Part shown: positions 1,415-43,306 of the stretch, piece by piece | Layout of the letters: each line of letters begins with the position of its first letter | Position numbering within the stretch: position 1 is the first letter of the stretch | Source of the DNA: Parietichytrium sp. I65-24A | Lineage: Eukaryota > Sar > Bigyra > Thraustochytrida > Thraustochytriidae | Direction of reading: 5' to 3' | NCBI GenBank assembly: GCA_012862575.1 | Contig: BLSF01000001.1 | Coordinates: forward strand, 930,001-994,000 | DNA: 64,000 nt | The notes under the pieces: generated by a model | What the model was told of the DNA's origin: nothing | Seen by the model: the letters and a program-made list of their open reading frames with translations, nothing else | Database searches by the model: none | Translations under genes and position numbers: made by a program

Positions 1415-2896
1415 TCACATGTATGAGCACCGGAAGAAGCGTTGCGTCTCTACATCGTGCAGCGCAAACAAACCCTAGCTAGTGGAAGGTAGGGTGCATC
1501 GTCAATTTTGTTTTCTCGCATCTCGTTTTGCTTTGGAGCTGCCAGCTCCGCCAGAGCTTTTGGGCATCGTCGCCAGGCCACCTCCGGTTCTTGATCAGTA
1601 CCGACCATTTTTTTTAATTTTGAAGGTTTTGGAGTTTCCTTCCATGAAGCGAAAAAGAAAAGAGAAACGTTTTGTTTCGATCAAGCAAATTTTTTAGTTG
1701 TCCTTGTGCTCTGATTGCGAGTATTCCTTCTCTTCGTATGCTGGCTGATCAAAAATAACTTATTCGATCCACGTGGTTCGATCTTGTCATATCTCATTCT
1801 CCGATACTTACACTCACTATGGCAGGGGTTACAGCTGCTCACTGCCGTTTGCCATTCACACAGAAATTCACGAATAAAAAGAGAAGGGGAAAAGTAGGCA
1901 CACGAACAGCCATGTTCGTCTAAACAAAAAGAAAAAATAGGTTTGGTTAGGGTTGGCTCGATTTGAAAGAGGAGTCGCTCGTGCAAGTCTTGCCAACTGC
2001 CCCTTTCGCGCCTTCAGAAACTCGCCTCGCGCCCCCCAGCATATCTTTCCCCTATTCTTCACCCAATGTATTCCAGAAGATATTCTCTCAGGGGCACCTT
2101 CTCATTCAAATTGGGGGGGGTATGGGGCGCACTAAAGTGGATGGCCATAGCGCTTCCTTCCCCAACTCCCCACCCAGCACCACCTTCACACCCAAGCTTA
2201 CCACCAGCGTTCGCAGATCCCATAGGGATGCGGCGGACTCCTACCCACCCCTCTGGGAGTGCTCCACCCCTCAGTCCCGCTTACACTTTCCGCTACCCAA
2301 CCCCCAACTGCCGCCTACCGGTCTGTCCCATAACCTCCCTACGCGCGTCCGCTCCCCGTGGTCCTAGCGCCTCGCATAGCAGCCGCTACCGGCGGAGGGC
2401 ATGCAGAACGGCGAGGAAGAAAGGAAGGGAGGAGGACAGCAAACCAAAGCGACGAAGGAGAAAAGAAGGAGTGGGAGGACACGGAGCGGAAAGGACGGAA
2501 CGAGGAACGAGGAACAAGGAAGCAGGAGCGAGAAGGACGAGGACGCAGGGTAAGTGCGCGATGCGAGCGGTGAGAGCGGTGAGAGCGGTGCGGAGAGTGG
2601 GGGGTGCAAGCAAGGCCGTTGTCGTTGATTTATTTTTAAAATATATGAAATATCGAGAATGAGTGTATGAGGATATGAGGATGTGAGGATGAGTAGGGAC
2701 CGTCTGCGTGGAGGAGTCTTGGAAGTGTGTGTGGAGCTGATGACGAAGAGGAAGGATTGGTGAAGGGGAAAGAAATAAAAGCTGACGTGCGGATGTTGGA
2801 ACTTTGTTGCGCGAATGTTTGTTTGGTGGATTCTGTGTGTTTGAGAAGGAAAGGAAAGGAAATTTGGAGGTTGAGAAAGTTGTGGAGCTGCCAAGG
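1415..2896. other. Intergenic: 3' flank of kinase gene and 5' flank of helicase gene
   Basis: No convincing gene. It holds the 38-bp interspersed element at 1459-1496, a purine-rich stretch around 2400-2560 and short GAGGAT-type tandem repeats around 2660-2695. Open frames over 2066-2662 are low-complexity Arg/Glu/Pro strings and look like chance. A consensus donor (GTAAGT) at about 2548 could belong to a 5' UTR intron of the helicase gene, but no acceptor could be placed with confidence. Confidence 0.6.
1459..1496 (+). mobile_element. Mini interspersed element, 5'-truncated copy C
   Basis: A 38-bp insert between direct repeats CATCGT at 1453-1458 and 1497-1502. It shares the core AAACAAACCCTA, the GGAAGG loop block and the GGTG 3' end with the copies at 8742-8794 and 42346-42397, but begins 18 nt further in than the latter. 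ACCCTA and TAGGGT form a 6-bp inverted repeat around a 12-nt loop. Confidence 0.65.
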
Positions 2897-7757: not shown

Positions 7758-8741
7758 CCTCACGCAAATGCTTCAGCGGCTCGCAATCATCAATCGATTT
7801 CAGGCTTTTGGCGACTACCCGTCTAGGATCGCTTCCGCTCGTTGCAAGACCGTCGATCAGAGCGTTGCAAAGTATTCCCGGGATCTGGGCGTTCTATTTG
7901 TTGTACAGTGATCAGCGCAGGAGTTAATTGGAGGCGGGTGCAGGCGGCATAGGGATCCAATTTCCCTCTTTCAAGACAAACACAAAAACGCTTTGATCCA
8001 AAGTCTCTTCGATCAAGATTGCTCTGTATGCATAGATATGTTTTCTCCATCTCTTGGAGAGCAAGTCACACGTTCTTTTCTCGCGACCTGGCCCGCCTTA
8101 GTTTATTCGTAGAATTCATTGTATCGCACACCGGTACCGTGCAGCTCTTTGTTGTTGCATTCAGGTAAACGATCAAAGAACAGAAATGAGACGATAACTT
8201 ATCAAAACTCAGGAGCCAACACTGGACTTTCGCAAGATCATGAGAATACATGTGTTGTTTTCGAGCCTGAAAATCACTTGACGATTCCAGTGCGTTCGAA
8301 CTCAATTGCTCTCAAGTGCACAAAGACCGCCACACATCTTGTAGGCAGCGCAACGCCAGGTGTGCTTCGAACTCTCGCACTCACACGCTTACAATGAATG
8401 TCACAGACATCTCCAGACCTTGCGATTCCCAAAGCGCCAAAGCAAACCATTTTTTATTAAAAATAGGAAACCCATTCTTGAGCCATGCCTGGTCGCAATG
8501 AGCGAAGCGGTCAAGTGGGCGGAGGGTGGGCACGCTACCATTACTCGTACTCGCTGCCAGTTCCAATACCACATTTTGCGTTGGCGGCGAGTTCAACTAG
8601 TGTTGATGACTTGATGTCTGTGTGTAAGTCGCGCACTGGAACCCAACCCAAAGTGTTCACCATCAGGAGCCCGCGTATTCAAGGTCGGTAGGCATTCACC
8701 AGAAAAGAAAATGGGCTTGTGCCAGAGCACCCATTGTCAGT

Positions 8742-8794
8742 CAAGTGAAGCCACGAAGTGAGAGCGTAAACAAACCCTATCGGAAGGTGGGGTG
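8742..8794 (+). mobile_element. Mini interspersed element, copy A (longest)
   Basis: A 53-bp insert flanked by a perfect 9-bp direct repeat ATTGTCAGT at 8733-8741 and 8795-8803. It matches the copy at 42346-42397 except for one small difference near position 20 of the element. ACCCTA and TGGGGT can pair as a 6-bp hairpin with one T-G wobble. The 3' end (GGTG) abuts the right repeat with no poly(A). Confidence 0.75.
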
Positions 8795-9499
8795 ATTGTC
8801 AGTGGTGCATAAAAGTGAGCGCAAGCCATTATAGCCAGCGACTCACGATTACAGAGTTTCCACATTCTGTTGAAGTGAGACTAAGCCTTGGGTCTGTCTG
8901 CATTGACTCCAGAAAAGACCTCAAAACTGTTTCTATCGCCGCACTCCGTTCTGACGGTGGATGAATTGTAACCTACAGTCAGATGAATTCCGAACAACTC
9001 AATCAATTTTTGTTTTAAACATTTCAGCACATCACAGAGGAGCGTTCGACTCGACGCAACGTCTACAGACACTCGCTTCATTGTTTTGTAGTTCACATGG
9101 CTGCCTTTCAAAGCTCGCATTCGCACAAACTTGTGCACAGTCAGCACAACACCGAAACACCAAACGTCAAGTCGCACGTTTCCCATTTCCTATTTCCTAT
9201 TTTCTGTTTCCTTTTCTCTTGATTTCACAGTCAACAAGATCTTCTCAATGAATCACTTGAACTTGATTCATGAAACTCAAATTTCAAAGAGCAAAATTGA
9301 GCAAAATTGAGCGCAAGCCAAGTCCCCCTCTTAACACTTTCTACCGAACATCTCGGTCTTAACTAGTTCTATATTATATTAACAATAGCACCCTCATCAT
9401 GTGTGTACTGTTAACACTACCTCAAAATATAAGTTAGTGTTACTCTGGCAAATCCACTTTTGAGTCCACAACTTTTTGAAATTCTGAACTTCCAAATTT

Positions 9500-9541
9500 T
9501 CTAAATTCTAAAATTCTAAATTCTAAATTCTAAATTCTAAA
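9500..9541. repeat. TAAATTC heptamer cluster
   Basis: About five to six imperfect copies of TAAATTC/AAATTCT, a one-base variant of the AATTCTG heptamer that forms the array at 14804. Confidence 0.8.
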
Positions 9542-10307
9542 TCTGATTATGAAAAACACAATGTGCGTTTGGCAATTTTGTGTTGGTGTTGCGTGTCGCC
9601 CTGCTCTTGCTTCTCCTTGAAGAAAGAAACGTGTTCGACTTTGACTTACACCCCACGCAGCTCAAAACATGGGAGTCCTCAAAACGCAAAACGTGGCAGG
9701 CACCGGGTCTAGCTGCCTCCCAGAGCAGCCAAAGGCTCCTTGCGGAGTCCCAAGTTTGGTGCTTGTGACATCTTGTGACAATGCGACAGAAGGCGCCACC
9801 CCGCAACTGCCCCGGCTACTTGAATAGCATCCTACGTGCTACTGTGCTACGGGGGAGAGCGGCGGACAGACGATGCAAAGGTCTCTCTGACAGACGCTCG
9901 AAATGGTGAAAGCCGTTCTGCGACATCGGCACTGCTAGAAGGCGCTGGACACGGTTTGCATCCTGAATGCGAGAATGGAAAGAATGGAAGAACGATGATT
10001 CGAAGATAGCCGCTCTCAGCACGTTGATGCCTTCGCCTTGGCCTACTCTCTGCCTTGCCAATGGGCTCTCTCCGCAACCGTCTGCTCTGCTCTGCTCTAT
10101 AGCCAGTTCTCATTACAACCTCTACCCATCTTCAGAGCGTGGTGTAGTAGTAGCAGTGCAGAATGTGTGAGTGTGTGTAATACAGTACGCACGCTCCCTC
10201 CCTCTCTCCCCTCCCTCTCTCTCCCTCGCTGCCTCGACCGGCCAGCCAGAGGCGTTAGCCATCGAGATTTTTATTTGCAGTTTAGTGTTTTGGAAAGGCC
10301 GAAGACG

Positions 10308-11038: not shown

Positions 11039-12166
11039 ATGAAGCTCACTGCTGGAGTTGTGGCCGTTGCCCTCGTGGCGAGCACCCAGGTCGAGGCGCA
11101 CAGCTGGGTGGACTGCGTCGATTGGCGCAACGGGCAGTGCTACGGATACGCCAGAAATTTCCACGTTCAGCCAGCTGTTCCGCTGGGCCAAGATGTTGGA
11201 CGCGATCAGCGCCCAGGAGCGGACGTTCCTGCAGGATTGGTGTGCGGAACCCGCGAGCAGCCCAACGCAAACGTGGCTGATGGATACAGCACGACCTACC
11301 CAATGGCAACTGTGTCACCTGGCCAGACTCTGACCATGCGCTGGCCAGCCAAGAACCACGCCACCGTAGGAACTCAGCGCGGAGTCCAGCTCTTCATCAG
11401 CCGCGCACCAGGTGCTGGCGACGATTTCAGCCACATCTCGAGCAAGGCCAGCTGGCTTGCGGCAAACCCAGGCCTCGAGCAGACCTTCTCGAACTGCTCG
11501 CCTAACCAGCCAAACTTGGACAAGATTCCATGCACAGGAGACTTCAAGCTTCCTTCTGATCTCCAGCCTGGTGTCTACACCTTCATGTGGTGGTGGGAGT
11601 TCAACCAGGGAGAGTTCTACAACTCGTGCGCAGACGTCGTGGTGTCCGGAAACGCAGCTCCAACATCTCCGCCGACCGCTGGTGCACCAACCACTTCTCC
11701 GCCAACTATTGCAGGAGCGGCCCCTACGACAAGTACGACAATCCCACCAGTCGCTGCTCCAACTGCGCCACCTACCGCCACAACAGCCTGCGCTAACAAC
11801 GTGTGGGGCCAGTGCGGTGGCAAAGATTTCTCTGGAAGCACTTGCTGCCCATCCGGAACCGCCTGCCAATACTTCCACGAATGGTACTCGCAGTGCTTGC
11901 CAGGTGACAGCACGTTGAGCATTGATGGAAGCGACCTGGACACCACCACCTCAAGTTCCACCATGTCCACAGGCAGTTATGTTGGTGTTGGTGTGGGAGT
12001 CGCTGCTGGCTGCGTTCTTGCTATTGGAGGATTCTCTCTGTACAAGAAACGCAGACAGCTGTCTGCGCAGGCCGCCACTGCTCCGTACGCGTCCAGTGTG
12101 CAGACCATCCAGCCTGGTTACTACGGCGACAACGCGTATTCTGGCAACCCGAAATACCAGGTGTAA
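11039..12166 (+). CDS. LPMO-like secreted protein with CBM1 and C-terminal membrane anchor
   Basis: 375 aa. The signal peptide (1-20, ending VEA) should release a mature protein starting with His (H21-S-W-V-D-C). An N-terminal His is the first half of the copper histidine brace of lytic polysaccharide monooxygenases; a second His is at H107 (WPAKNHATVG), and a possible axial Tyr lies in GEFYNSCADV (Y194). Cys pairs and a compact beta-rich region of about 185 residues fit the fold. A Thr/Pro linker (about 205-250) leads to a fungal-type cellulose-binding module CBM1 (about 251-287: WGQCGGKDF..GSTCC..YSQCLP). A transmembrane helix (about 314-335) and a short basic and Tyr-rich tail follow. By family knowledge it would oxidatively cleave crystalline polysaccharide; membrane tethering is seen in sequence, activity is inferred. 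Confidence 0.82.
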   Translation: MKLTAGVVAVALVASTQVEAHSWVDCVDWRNGQCYGYARNFHVQPAVPLGQDVGRDQRPGADVPAGLVCGTREQPNANVADGYSTTYPMATVSPGQTLTMRWPAKNHATVGTQRGVQLFISRAPGAGDDFSHISSKASWLAANPGLEQTFSNCSPNQPNLDKIPCTGDFKLPSDLQPGVYTFMWWWEFNQGEFYNSCADVVVSGNAAPTSPPTAGAPTTSPPTIAGAAPTTSTTIPPVAAPTAPPTATTACANNVWGQCGGKDFSGSTCCPSGTACQYFHEWYSQCLPGDSTLSIDGSDLDTTTSSSTMSTGSYVGVGVGVAAGCVLAIGGFSLYKKRRQLSAQAATAPYASSVQTIQPGYYGDNAYSGNPKYQV

Positions 12167-14558: not shown

Positions 14559-14803
14559 CCCGCTATCCCGCTATCCCGCTAGCGCCCAATCTCGCTTCTG
14601 AATCCCTCTACTATCTTCGCGTCCTTGATCGCCGTGAGGAAGCGCGTTCTTGCCAAGCCCTCGCCCGAGCGCTCGCAATCCTTACCAGACGCCTTGCCCG
14701 TGCCGACTGTATCTCACTCTTGTTCTAGGTCTGAAGGATCACCTCCTCCTCCTCTGGCCTCCAGCAGCTAGCACTCGAGTACGCCGTGTGGTAAAAACCT
14801 GAC

Positions 14804-14893
14804 AATTCTGAATTCTGAATTCTGAATTCTGAATTCTGAATTCTGAATTCTGAATTCTGAATTCTGAATTCTGAATTCTGAATTCTGAATTCT
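14804..14893. repeat. AATTCTG heptamer array (about 12.8 copies)
   Basis: Ninety bases of almost perfect 7-bp tandem repeat AATTCTG; each unit pair recreates GAATTC. The same heptamer occurs in short clusters elsewhere in the window (22974-23008, 21790, 60963 and, as complement, near 29572). Confidence 0.97.
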
Positions 14894-16092
14894 ACGCGCA
14901 CGCGCTACGAGAAGCTACGAGTGTGTAGTGTGTTGGGGGTGATTTGGGACCTCCCTCATCCTCCCTCATCGACAGGGCAGTAAAGTTGATAGGACGCGGG
15001 GTGAGAGAGGCTTCTTGCCCTGACTCTGACTGGCAAAAAGCCCTCTCACAACTCTCACAACTCTCACCCTGACATACCCTGCCCTCCTCACACCTTTCCT
15101 TTACTGTTAGTCCGAAGCAATTGGAACAAGAAAGGTTTCTGCTTTTGTTTAGTTTACTCTTTGTCGTTGCATGAATGCATTCATTCGTTTATTATTCATA
15201 ATCGAATGAGACCTTGCAGTTGCTCTTGAAAGTCAACGTTATTCTGGATACATGTTTCAGATTTCGATGATCAAATGAAGAATTAATTCTTCTACTTTCT
15301 ACTTTCTAAAAAATCCCAAGCACAAACTCTTTGTCAGCCAGCAACGAGTGAGCGAGTATTAGTACGTCTAACACTTCACTAAGTAGTTTTTCTATATCTG
15401 GGTTAATGTATAGGAGCAGTGTTAATGGCTCTTGTAATGTTTACAATAATGGAACCTTTTGTGTTACGTTTCACGCGAACGAGGCGTAGAAGGATACTTT
15501 GTGGTACACAACCCAGTGCTAGCAGATACTATAGACCCAGAGTAAGGAGCTGTCTATTGTCCTCGAGGCGCATGAGTTTCTATCCGGAGCGCTAGAGTGT
15601 GGACGAAAATTGACTCGCCTGTTCAATGCTGTTCAGTCAGTTCAGCTCAGTCGCTCTGACAGTGACATGTTGATTGAATAACTGTACAAAAAGAAATGAA
15701 ACGAAATGTTCATTGGATGCATTGACTGCGACAATGAAACAAACCATCGCCGTCGACTTCTAAAATGCCTGGCCACAAAGCCTTCACGCGAAAGTCACCT
15801 ACTGTGGCAGGGATTATTAAAGCTGCTCACGATCGTTCGCCTCCGCTGGAACATATTCTTGAGAGCGTGTGGATCGTGCTGGCAATCAAACAACGAGCTT
15901 GGCGAATAGACCGCGAAAGCACGCGATGTCTCTTTTCTATTCTCGCCTTTGGAATCAATGCAATTGATTTGAATCGAGTCCGTGATTGTACCAAGACGAG
16001 AACAGGAACGAGAACAAGAACGTGAACGAGAACGGCCCTCGAGAGAGGGAGAAGTGGGCACTGAGTAATGAGGAGGAGGAAGTGGGGGAAGG

Positions 16093-20306: not shown

Positions 20307-23300
20307 TGTTGCTGGTTATATGTGTTTTACTTTTTTTCGAGTTTTCTTTCCACCTCAATGGCAAAGACACAAAAAGCTTTCGCTCTTTTTCCCCCTTGGC
20401 TTCGCCAAAAATCACAATCAGGGACTGGACTCTTTCACGGTTCGTTCCTTCAGCAAAGGTGCAGAGATTGGCGGTTGCGCGCCGTCCAGGTTTTTGTACT
20501 GCACACCGTTTCAAGGAGTTGAGGAACTGCTGATTGCTGCTTGCAACAGTTCGCAAGGTTCACAGAGCGAGTCGAGCGCAACGTTGTCCCAACCAAGAGC
20601 TGCTCTGCGCAAGCGTATCTTTAGCCCAGACCTGCAGAGCCAACCTGCACTCTCGAGGGAGCCACCTGCAAAACCTGGACTGCGTGCGACGCTGTGGATC
20701 TGGTCCCGTTGCGTCACAGCGCTTCTGGATATTGTGAATGTCGTATGATGCACGAGGTGTCAGCCAACGACGCCTCTTCCACAACGAGTGCAGGTATGCA
20801 TAGACTCGAGTTTAGCTGACTTAGCTCGCGCTAATGCAAAGCTATGCTCCTCCGCTTAGACTTGGGTGTAGTCCAGCGAAGACCGGGTGATTTGTCGTAC
20901 ACCGCACTCTCACTTACTCTCGCTCTCGCTCTCTCTCTCACACACCGCACACACCGCACTCACTCACCATTACTCAGTACCAGTACGACCAGTTGGAAAA
21001 CAACAAAATTTCTTAGAGACCTTCCTTTCCATTTTCCATTTCTTTGCTTTGCTTTCTTCTTCATTAAGTGAACGCGGAGGTCACAAGCTCAAGCTCGCAA
21101 CCAAAACGCTCTCTCGCGCCCTCTCTCCCGCTCTCTATCTCTCTTTCTGTCTCTCTACCTCTCTCTCTCTCTCTCCCCCTCTCCCCCCCTCACACACGTC
21201 CCATTGTGTTCCAAGCCATTTTGCCTTTGTGCTACTTTGTCAACTCTGTATTGACTGTAAATTCACGGGTGGCCAATACTGCCAATACACTACACTCCGT
21301 TGTCGACTCCTTTGGGGTCAAAAGTCTTTGCGCATTGTTGATCTCGATAGACTTTGATTGATTTCAATGATGAAGAGAGGGAGAGAATGGATAAAAGAAG
21401 AACTTCTGAGCACGAGAATGTTGTCTTGCCAACTAGAATGAGAAAGTCCAGGTTGCCAAATCATTGAAAGGCTTCTGGAATTTTACAGCGATTTTGCTCT
21501 TTGTTTTTTTGGTTTCATCTCAGCTCTTTCAAATTTCGATCTATTGTGCATTGAGTGAGGCCCTCTCGTGCGAAGCTGAATGTACGACCAAGTAAACTTG
21601 CTTGATCGATTGTTTGTTTGTTTTCGCTGAGGTGTCAGAGTCAGGCATTCTCAGCCAATGTCAGTCATTCAGAAGAAGCGATTACACCTCACTCGAAAGG
21701 TTCGATAACAACAGGCTATGGTCGCTTCGGTTGCGGGCGTAGAGTCCGCCAAAGCTCCAAGTCACAAAAGTTCCACCTGTGCATTCTTCTGAATTCTGAA
21801 ATTCTGTATTTTTCATAAATGAAATTTCTTTCACGTGACGGTCACAGCTCTTCTTTAATCTTTGATCTTTGCTCTGCTCTCCTCCGTGCGAGATCTAGAG
21901 ATGACTCAAGTGGGTTGTGAGTCCTCGCGGAGACTGATGCGATGCTTCCTTGAGAAGGAAGGGAAAACCTTGAGCAATTTGGATCAAGCGTGGAGACCAG
22001 GGGTTGGAAATGACACATCAGCACAATGGCACAGACTGCACAGACACAGACACAGATCGATAGCCGCTGAGCTCACTGCTCTTCGCCTTTTTCTTTGGTT
22101 CGAATGCGGCACTGTGAGACATATCCAAATTCTAAACTCTTCCAACTCCTCCACAAGTCGAGCCGTGACCATGTCGCATGGGGTCCTCTCCACTTTCTCG
22201 CGTCGTTGGTTTGGTTGGTCTATAGCTCGCTCTGAGATAGCTTCTGAATCGCATCGATTCACCAGGGCGGGGTCCGACCAAAGATCGTTTCCAACTCGGT
22301 CGCACTGACAATGAGCGTCTCTGTACTCACAGTCAGTACTGTTGCTCTGTTTGGCTTTGGGACAGCAGACACTGCAGCAGACAAGAAAAAAGAAACTTGT
22401 AAGACCATGGAGTGAAATGAAATGATTTGGAAAGATAGTGACTGTGAATGTGTCCTGTTCTATGAATCTTAAATACCTATCGTGGAGTGACAGCTCAGTT
22501 CTCGCTGCCAGCCAAATCCGCGAGCTGGTGTGCGCAGCTTCCAACATTCCAACACTCGACGACAACAATACCGGTACAGTTTGAGCAGAATATTTACAGT
22601 TAAAATCCAGTTCAGAACAAACAAAAGGTGTTGACAGCGAGCTGCTCTCACACTCACTGTCAAAGCCCAGTACAGCTCCTGACTCCTGACTCCATCATCC
22701 ACATTACGCACAATGCACAACGCACAATGCAATTGGATAGCTAGTTCTGTCTGGTCGCTTCTCTCGCGCTCATTCGAAACCTCGAGACTCGTCGTGTCGT
22801 TGTGGTACTTACACCAAGTACTCTTTGCGAGTAGTATGCCAGACGCAAGCGTCGCACGTTGACGTGCATGATGTCATCCAGCGCTAGTCTGTTCTGACGG
22901 TAACCCAGCAGGCCCTCCACGTGGACCTCTCTTTTACATCCTTTTACCTCTTTTACCTCTTTTACCTTTTATCCTGAATTCTGTTCTGAATTCTGAATTC
23001 TGAATTTGATGTTGTTTGGCCTTGCCCCTCCGCATCATCGCACGAACGCCACCCACGTCCAACGCCATACGTAAGCCCCGCCCAGCTCTGCTGTCACTCC
23101 CTCCCTGCCTCCTCTCAAACACTTTGATGCTGGCGCTGGGAATCTCAGCGGTCCCTCCCTCTTGCCTCTTGTGCAATGGAATGAATGTTCAACTGGAAAG
23201 AGCTGGGAGACGCAGGACTATCTCCATTCTGGATCCAGTTGATTGACTGACACATACTGACACTGAGATAAAATACTTCTGGAAACGCAAGTCACGGTGT

Positions 23301-41419: not shown

Positions 41420-42345
41420 TCCCTGCTATCCCCCAGCCTCTCCCGCCCGTCACGCCTCCCCCGAGGACACTTCGCTTGCCCACACTTGCCCACTCAGACT
41501 CGCACGCAACCCTCTCCAGGTGTGCACCCGCCAGTCTCGACCCACCAAACAAACAAACAAACAAACACACAATCAAACAAACAATCAAGCAAGCAAACAC
41601 ACACACACACACGGCCCGCGGACTCTTGCGAACTTCCGGTGCGGTGAACACGGGACACGGCCAGCTGTGGGGTCCTTCTCGCGAGGACACTGCACTGTGG
41701 TGAAAGAGTGAAAGAGTGAAAGAAACTTTTCTTCCCTTACTTTATAACTTGGCTCTCTCTCTCTCTCTATCTCTCTCTCACAGTCCTCACAGCAGGGCCT
41801 TCGTGCTCCTACTGTTCCTACTGGCTGGCAGCCTTCATTAGGACGTTTCATTAGACAACTCAATAGTCTTTTACTCTTGATAGGTTGATCTACGTGAGGC
41901 GTGCTACTCGGCAGGGTAGAAGCAATGGGGAGCACTAGGAGGGAGTGTGGAAGGACGACATAGGAGGGCTAGGACACACAGACGCACACATGGTATGCAC
42001 ACATTCATTTCACATGCACTTGCGCCAAGGAGGACTTGTTCTTCGAGGTCCCTCGAGGTTCCTCGAGGTCAAAGAAGCATTCAATTTGACAGTCAATTTT
42101 CAGATTCAGAAAAAGGATACAATGAAAGAACTGCCGGCGCCAGCAGGTTGTCTGTCTTTACGATTGCAAAATTATTATGAGTTTTACGACACAGCAACGA
42201 TGGTAATAGTGTTACGCAACTACGAAACCCACCCCGTGCGAGTACTAGCACTGTTACGGACAGAGAGTAATGTACAATAATGTACACGTGAAAATTAGCG
42301 ATCTCGCAAATTCTGTTCCTGAGGTAACCGGGATATCAGCATCCA

Positions 42346-42397
42346 CAAGTGAAGCCACGAAGTGCAGCGTAAACAAACCCTATCGGAAGGTGGGGTG
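42346..42397 (+). mobile_element. Mini interspersed element, copy B
   Basis: A 52-bp insert between perfect 8-bp direct repeats AGCATCCA at 42338-42345 and 42398-42405. Nearly identical to the copy at 8742-8794, with the same 5' start (CAAGTGAAGCC) and 3' end (GGTG). Confidence 0.75.
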
Positions 42398-43306
42398 AGC
42401 ATCCATGAGTTCGAGACAGAGTTTTGCCGCGGAGGTCGTTCGCAAAGTAACAATAAGTGCGCGGAATGCTGAACAAATTCCTAACGGTAGCTTGGAGGTC
42501 TTGGAAGAAAGTCCTGAGATACAATCCAAACACATGAGTGGAAAGCCTTCTAGACTTCAACGCTGCAGCGACAAACTTATGCAAGCCACACGCTTCTCCG
42601 TTGGGGGTAAAGTCTGAGACGAAAACTTCATCCAAGTCACACACTTTGCTGCATGGATTACTTGAAAAAGCAAGAACCCAAAATTGGTTTCGTGAAATAA
42701 ATATCGGTTGCACAAGCAAATTCGAACCCGGTTCCACCATGCACGGAATGCACGGTCGCACTGTCACACTGCCGCGCTCAACAGCTTCAAGACTGCTGCA
42801 CGCAATGGCTTCGGGATACAGCCACCGAGATATCAAGATACCTCCAAATCAAGCGTGTCCGGCGCGGCAACGAAGGCTAAATCGATGCAGTTCCGAGTCA
42901 GAATGGTTCGCCGAATGTTTGACCTGCAAGGTCATAGAGTGAGGCGGGCATCGGGTAATCGACCCACGAGAGAGTACCAGGGACACCCAGAGAAACCAGG
43001 TCGGCAATCTGAGCGATTACCCGCTTGACTTCGTCTGGCCCAAATTAGAGTACTTGAAGCATTTTGCACCTAGCGTGTTTCAAAGGAGCGGAAACCGAAT
43101 GAGGCTCAGTATGCTCGTGTGTGAAACCACAAAAGGCGGGTTTGATTTTGTGTTGAGAGGCTGTCCTGCGCGCGTTCGCGTTCGCGTTCGCTTCTTTACC
43201 TTCCAAGTCACCAGATGAGGAATTCATCTCTCTTTGTTCCAACCAAAAATGAAAAAATAAATCTAAAATCTATCTCAAGCCGTGATACTAAATTAATCAA
43301 AGAAGG

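Follow-up and report, generated by a model that had tools for sequence, protein, structure and literature searches.

We report a family of discrete non-coding elements of about 51 nt that are scattered through the genome and that we consider, on balance, to be retroposons copied from the 3' end of an RNA by an enzyme whose two target cuts lie a fixed 9 nt apart. That an RNA is the intermediate, which enzyme acts and in which direction it copies are what we infer from the arrangement of the copies rather than read directly in their sequence. Support for the RNA route comes from the exact 3' end and the RNA hairpin predicted there, from 5' ends that are remade with every insertion and from copies standing in tandem with one duplication between them; the fixed 9-bp length of the duplication alone would favour a transposase and not reverse transcription. 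A first-pass annotation of the window (the whole stretch of DNA that was analysed, 64 kb) had proposed target-primed reverse transcription on the grounds that the duplications vary in length. That mechanism is still the leading reading, while the reason given for it was wrong, as the length is fixed at 9 bp.

Copies within the 64-kb window

Re-reading of the sequence found three copies and their flanking direct repeats at all of the positions claimed in the first-pass annotation. The window contains exactly three occurrences of the core AAACAAACCCTA, and a profile derived from the family recovered these three copies there and no others. Their features are the following.

1453..1458, + strand: left target-site duplication of copy 1, CATCGT, 6 bp exact, with a 9-bp version at 2 mismatches
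1459..1496, + strand: copy 1, a diverged and 5'-shortened variant (...CCCTAGCTAGTGGAAGGTAGGGTG), from sequence and family profile
1472..1495, + strand: 3'-terminal hairpin of copy 1 with outer stem ACCCTA/TAGGGT, predicted fold
1497..1502, + strand: right target-site duplication of copy 1, CATCGT, from sequence
8733..8741, + strand: left 9-bp target-site duplication of copy 2, ATTGTCAGT, from sequence
8742..8794, + strand: copy 2, full length, an extra C followed by the 52-nt body common to 32 sampled copies
8774..8793, + strand: 3'-terminal 8-bp stem of copy 2, ACCCTATC/GGTGGGGT, with GGAA loop, then one G, predicted fold
8795..8803, + strand: right 9-bp target-site duplication of copy 2, ATTGTCAGT, from sequence
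42338..42345, + strand: left target-site duplication of copy 3, AGCATCCA, from sequence
42346..42397, + strand: copy 3, full length, a variant with GTGCAGCG in place of GTGAGAGCG
42377..42396, + strand: 3'-terminal 8-bp stem of copy 3 with GGAA loop, predicted fold
42398..42405, + strand: right target-site duplication of copy 3, AGCATCCA, from sequence

All three copies lie outside open reading frames of at least 250 aa, and one sits 44 bp past a stop codon, close to a gene. Elsewhere in the window, arrays of a 7-bp tandem repeat (AATTCTG/AATTCTA) were observed at 14790-14901, 9505-9546 and 22982-23023, and positions 11039-12166 correspond to a protein that has DUF7492 and CBM_1, a cellulose-binding domain of fungal type.

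The family across the genome

The assembly (42.5 Mb in 172 contigs) was searched on both strands with a strict pattern of the 3' part of the element. This returned at least 210 copies, against 0 for the reversed pattern, and an exact 16-base motif from the 5' part gave 219 matches, again against 0 when reversed. BLAST with one copy reported 42 matches in the best 40 of 377 candidates, many of them 100% identical across 50–53 bases and with common end points. In a profile search of all regions then fetched, 133 of 182 matches (some of them counted twice from overlapping loci) scored 55 bits or more and few were weak. The element is thereby seen to be discrete and short, and the sampled copies are mostly near-identical. 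This near-identity, together with the many perfect duplications, makes recent activity of the family probable, with the proviso that young copies are over-represented by a sampling scheme in which most copies came either from the best BLAST matches or from the strict 3' pattern, whose 210 places were taken in contig order up to the 100th. The sample also holds duplicated loci that are not independent (L096/L151, L130/L131 and the L040 pair).

Longer relatives did not appear in 20 fetched regions that carry the 5' motif without the strict core, picked among the first 100 of the 219 places; all 22 motif matches there belonged to the short body, either intact or in a decayed or shortened state. 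Rfam gave no match on the element at six loci, its seven weak matches all falling in L001 away from the element. An exact 23-mer had no match in viral_contigs or genome_contigs, collections of viral and prokaryotic sequence that are therefore little informative here, and a search for a foreign source of the odd 5' part of L098 returned its own locus alone (the reversed control also gave 1). The first-pass annotation knew of no described family that matches, and none was found in searches of open-licence literature.

A target-site duplication of fixed length

The flanks of sampled copies were examined for direct repeats, as the first-pass annotation had proposed. This gave 9-bp repeats with at most one mismatch at 115 of 157 copies when 3'-end shifts and diverged copies were admitted, a looser rule that shuffled flanks satisfied in 7.7 of 157 cases on average and 13 at most. 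Insertion with target-site duplication is on this count solidly supported, with 42 of the 157 copies having no acceptable duplication, a point that is counted against retroposition. At the exact 3' end a duplication was found for 100 copies (shuffled mean 2.1) and a perfect one for 77 (shuffled mean 0.55). Considering only repeats immediately at both ends, 71 of 134 copies had a perfect 9-bp repeat, 22 had one mismatch and 41 had none. A good repeat was also present at 52 of 89 copies when its length was not preset, against a mean of 0.78 and a maximum of 2 when downstream flanks were shuffled among copies.

The longest exact repeat was determined for 115 copies with both ends readable and measured 9 bp in 41, 10 bp in 14, 8 bp in 3, 3–7 bp in 14 and 12 bp in 1, with none in 42. 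Repeats of at least 9 bp arose about 0.5 times per set in shuffled flank pairs, and one chance base past 9 bp is expected in about a quarter of copies; extra matching bases at the two junctions were near chance (15/77 and 23/77). The varying lengths of 6, 8 and 9 bp described from the window consequently do not hold for the family, whose duplication is fixed at 9 bp. The 6- and 8-bp repeats of the window are outliers, and probably represent decayed or edge-shifted 9-bp repeats.

Two further accounts of the element were weighed. Its shortness and the window copy near a gene could suggest an artefact of assembly or a regulatory site that is conserved. That non-mobile explanation is already contradicted by site-specific 9-bp duplications far in excess of shuffled controls, by nested and tandem insertions and by the unrelated flanks, which had been claimed for the window and were borne out in the genome copies compared; we give it next to no credence. 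It is slightly less implausible, while still very improbable, that the elements are introners, small introns spread by transposition, some of which have duplications of 3–9 bp (as reported in PMC9860276), a range that includes the 9 bp observed. No GT...AG framing fits the copies compared by eye, given that ends and duplications differ by site, and no intron signature was seen here, the three window copies lying outside the long open reading frames.

The main competitor is a MITE-like miniature DNA transposon. The DDE transposase that mobilises it would cut with a stagger of 9 bp and would most likely belong to the Mutator/MULE superfamily. Such a transposase would recognise the GGTGGGGTG end well and take almost any other end that starts with a pyrimidine, in the manner of one-ended transposition. 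The fixed 9-bp duplication fits the 8–10 bp, mostly 9 bp, of MULEs, and the active MULE Muta1 is described in PMC5225508 as making 8- or 9-bp duplications with no apparent sequence preference. We nevertheless judge the transposon unlikely in view of the termini, the predicted hairpin and the MULE genes of the genome, which are taken up below.

An exact 3' end and a ragged 5' end

The 3' end ...GGGGTG fell on the same base in 100 of the 115 duplicated copies, and the duplication starts directly after it with no tail, in agreement with the earlier claim that poly(A) is lacking. The lack of terminal inverted repeats was likewise confirmed (6 of 12 positions at best). Their absence speaks against the transposon; non-TIR MULEs are known, so it makes MULE membership less likely rather than impossible.

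The usual start of the body is AAGTGAAGC, and this or AGTGAAGCC was recognisable in 92 of 115 copies. In these 92 the bases that precede AAG were C (26), T (19), TT (7), CA (5) or various other strings. The start is altered or cut in the remaining 23, as with CACGAAGTG in L077 and TAGCCACG in L027. Among the 71 copies with perfect duplications the first two bases were CA in 44, TA in 16, TT in 5, CT in 3 and others in 3, the base adjoining the duplication being C or T in 68. Termini are thus mostly CA...TG, and either CA...TG or TA...TG in 60 of the 71, which favours the transposon: a C or T beside the duplication and mostly CA...TG termini could reflect what a transposase requires and are counted against retroposition.

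The 5' end nonetheless varies on a constant body. An identical 52-nt body was found in 32 copies, yet with 12 different 5' additions of 1–15 nt, and a second body type, represented by 13 identical copies, occurs in six 5' states. No difference in the use of C, T or TT additions was detectable between the two main body types (p = 0.27). Since identical bodies carry many different additions, the 5' addition is, judging from these copies, made at each insertion and not inherited. The 12 additions on one body run counter to the precise cleavage at both ends that is expected of the transposon.

Products of one-ended transposition in bacteria also have one exact end, one variable end and a fixed duplication, as here, and their variable ends derive from donor DNA. 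The element differs in that five of its long additions, those of L032, L129, L137, L144 and L106, occur just once each in the genome when taken together with the body start, and the assembly therefore lacks a donor copy carrying them. An origin from donor flanks was on this basis rejected for all five long strings examined. Further long additions, in L020, L041, L057 and L016, had no match in other sampled copies. Short additions did match the flank of another sampled copy (CTTT 22 times, CTCT 4, TGGC 3, and those of L127 and L143 once each), which chance can explain at that length.

Several copies are truncated at the 5' end with the duplication directly at the truncation (L010, L027, L069, L077 and L081). 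Slippage-like repeats were observed near the 5' end of L042 and of L016. Some 5' ends have, by eye, a locally templated look, namely inverted CACTG/CAGTG in L106 and L041, a repeat of the target in L020 and repeated CACGAAGTAT in L042. Separately, an extra 5' half with no recognisable 3' end adjoins L041.

A hairpin predicted at the RNA 3' end

In the RNA, the 21 bases at the 3' end of the body are predicted to form an 8-bp stem with a GGAA loop that ends 1 nt before the 3' end and includes two G-U pairs. A terminal stem of at least 8 bp was obtained in 0 of 5000 dinucleotide-preserving shuffles, and the complementary strand showed no notable fold. The variant L019 (TATT...GGTAGGG) differs at two stem positions and keeps all 8 pairs, and the window copy at 1459 keeps the six outer ones. 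Stringent LINE enzymes use 3' stem-loops, to which that of the element is similar, while the transposon leaves an RNA-type hairpin unexplained. Counted against retroposition are the modest fold energy, which was equalled by 188 of 5000 shuffles and by 7 of 200 in a separate run, the weaker 3'-end fold of L031 and L154, two diverged copies with insertions in the 3' part, and the near-chance level of extra matches at the junctions.

Target preference and serial insertion

Weak base preferences were observed in the flanks and in one copy of the duplication, partly mirrored around the duplication centre. G is avoided 4 bp before the duplication and C 4 bp after it, and within it T at position 3 is mirrored by A leading at position 7; the symmetry is partial in that T is also preferred at position 9, without a counterpart at position 1. 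Among 38 centres tested the symmetry score peaked exactly at the duplication centre, and none of 2000 shuffles reached it, either in the set of 69 exact sites or in that of 90 where one mismatch was allowed, these being the sites kept once any whose 9-mer was repeated, or that had simple repeats or element sequence beside them, had been dropped. In earlier, smaller samples the score was reached by 0 and 1 of 2000 shuffles. Because the preference is symmetrical around the duplication centre, both target cuts probably come from the same kind of activity. Symmetry of this kind favours the transposon, and a fixed 9-bp duplication on a symmetric target, being typical of transposases, is counted against retroposition.

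Both sets of features would be covered if a small RNA were reverse transcribed end to end and the double-stranded cDNA then inserted by symmetric strand transfer by an integrase- or transposase-like enzyme, which accounts for the ragged 5' end as well as for the symmetric 9-bp target with clean junctions. No candidate enzyme for such a hybrid was found, the integrases of long-terminal-repeat elements normally make duplications of 4–6 bp, and we know of no eukaryotic system with these parts; it is accordingly held to be improbable.

Of the 115 copies, 7 are followed by another element of the same orientation, which starts no more than 4 bases past the duplication. Near position 307 of L165 (C18:327900-329800) three occurrences of the 9-mer GGGGCCAAT bracket two copies that have identical bodies and different 5' additions and are followed by a diverged copy. 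To judge by these repeats, the C18 site is one of serial insertion at a single site. Pairs of similar arrangement were found on C1 and C13, and on C140 two different body types share a nearly equal duplication. By eye, elements are nested in each other in inverted orientation at L087 (C12:289405-290306), where the insertions lie near the CAAACCCTA part of the target copy.

Proposed mechanism and comparison with known elements

Under retroposition, which remains our preferred reading, a discrete RNA of about 51–52 nt, ending in the 8-bp stem, GGAA loop and one 3' G, would be the template of a non-autonomous retroposon. An endonuclease/reverse transcriptase encoded elsewhere would cut the target twice with a fixed 9-nt stagger, both strands being cut with similar weak base preference. 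Copying of the tailless RNA would begin precisely at its 3' terminus and would mostly reach its 5' end (AAGUG...), sometimes stopping early or slipping. Before second-strand synthesis the enzyme would usually append one untemplated base or a few, which on the top strand are mostly C or T, and gap repair would then yield the 9-bp duplication.

The element resembles SINEs in being non-coding, interspersed and flanked by duplications, with a fixed 3' end and a variable 5' end, and it has the fixed 3' end, 5' truncation and untemplated 5' bases of short retroposons. SINEs derived from tRNA, 5S or 7SL RNA have sizes far above that of the element. It further differs from them in having a duplication of fixed length, no tail, no Rfam match at the six loci searched and no pol III A or B box within 1 mismatch, the last of these being counted against retroposition.

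In trypanosomes, ingi/RIME and L1Tc/NARTc are hundreds of bases long or more and the short members have sequence in common with the partner LINE, and members of the ingi clade share the 5' signature Pr77. Retroposons of this clade have a conserved 12-bp duplication and form tandems with a single duplication between copies (PMC3820030). The present element is like these short non-coding elements in its conserved duplication length and single-duplication tandems, and unlike them in its size of about 51 nt, its 9-bp rather than 12-bp duplication and in that no partner was found.

The likeness to MULE-derived MITEs consists of the 9-bp duplication, short length, non-coding sequence and presence of MULE genes in the genome. 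The element departs from them in having no inverted repeats, no fixed 5' end and no ends in common with the MULE genes seen. For DNA of about 50 bp, moreover, the transposon would presumably require sharp bending for the ends to meet, and no longer element with these ends was present among the 22 motif matches of the 20 fetched regions.

We also entertain, as a doubtful proposal, that the family belongs to a new class of mobile element whose entire replicon would be an RNA of about 51 nt. This RNA would be copied into DNA over its full length and inserted through a symmetric cut of both strands, 9 nt apart, with no poly(A), pol III boxes, inverted repeats or long relative. The family would then be the smallest retroposon family known to us. 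If the RNA route is true, the size limit set by what a retrotransposition enzyme needs would be far lower, perhaps one short 3' stem-loop, and the element would offer a naturally simple substrate for the choice of template 3' end and for second-strand cutting at a fixed distance. If a transposase acts instead, the pairing of ends in an element of about 50 bp, one of whose ends is undefined, would be unusual. The probable recent activity makes the system open to direct study.

Candidate enzymes in the genome

A search with the PF10551 profile, which like that with PF00078 below may miss weak or repeated matches, identified three MULE genes with long open frames (L091, L092 and L093), which is a point in favour of the transposon. 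Two of them are related, with 57% and 46% identity over two stretches, and the third is different; no copies of the L092 type were found beyond L091, and the genes are possibly domesticated. Around the three genes only weak matches to the element ends, with 4–5 errors, and no clear terminal repeats were found. These surroundings thus hold no convincing element-like ends, which weighs against the transposon, and an autonomous MULE with matching ends was not seen at any of the three.

For reverse transcriptases, a search of the contigs with the PF00078 (RVT_1) profile, which may miss weak or repeated matches, gave two matches, a telomerase and a LINE-like protein. The LINE-like gene lies at a contig end in L086 (C1:1285500-1290001) and has relatives on C45, C40 and C138. 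Its family has few copies, most matches being fragments or containing stops. The 3' end of the small element was absent from the LINE-like reverse-transcriptase stretches read, and a LINE with a matching 3' end was not seen near the copies read. Counted against retroposition is accordingly that no active LINE, and none with the 3' end of the element, was found, the reverse-transcriptase matches being a telomerase and a mostly broken family.

The C-terminal region of the LINE-like protein has by eye the appearance of a zinc finger and an endonuclease, and from its motif we take it to resemble that of a LINE with a restriction-like endonuclease. Since the C45 copy in L164 (around C45:209896-210417) adjoins two sequences that we presume to be 5S rRNA, this LINE-like element may be site-specific and targeted to 5S. 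The telomerase reverse transcriptase gene (PF12009 and RVT_1) occupies positions 364-3135 of L085 (C11:63000-68500). As a separate observation, the small element contains AAACCCTA, which resembles the plant-type telomere repeat.
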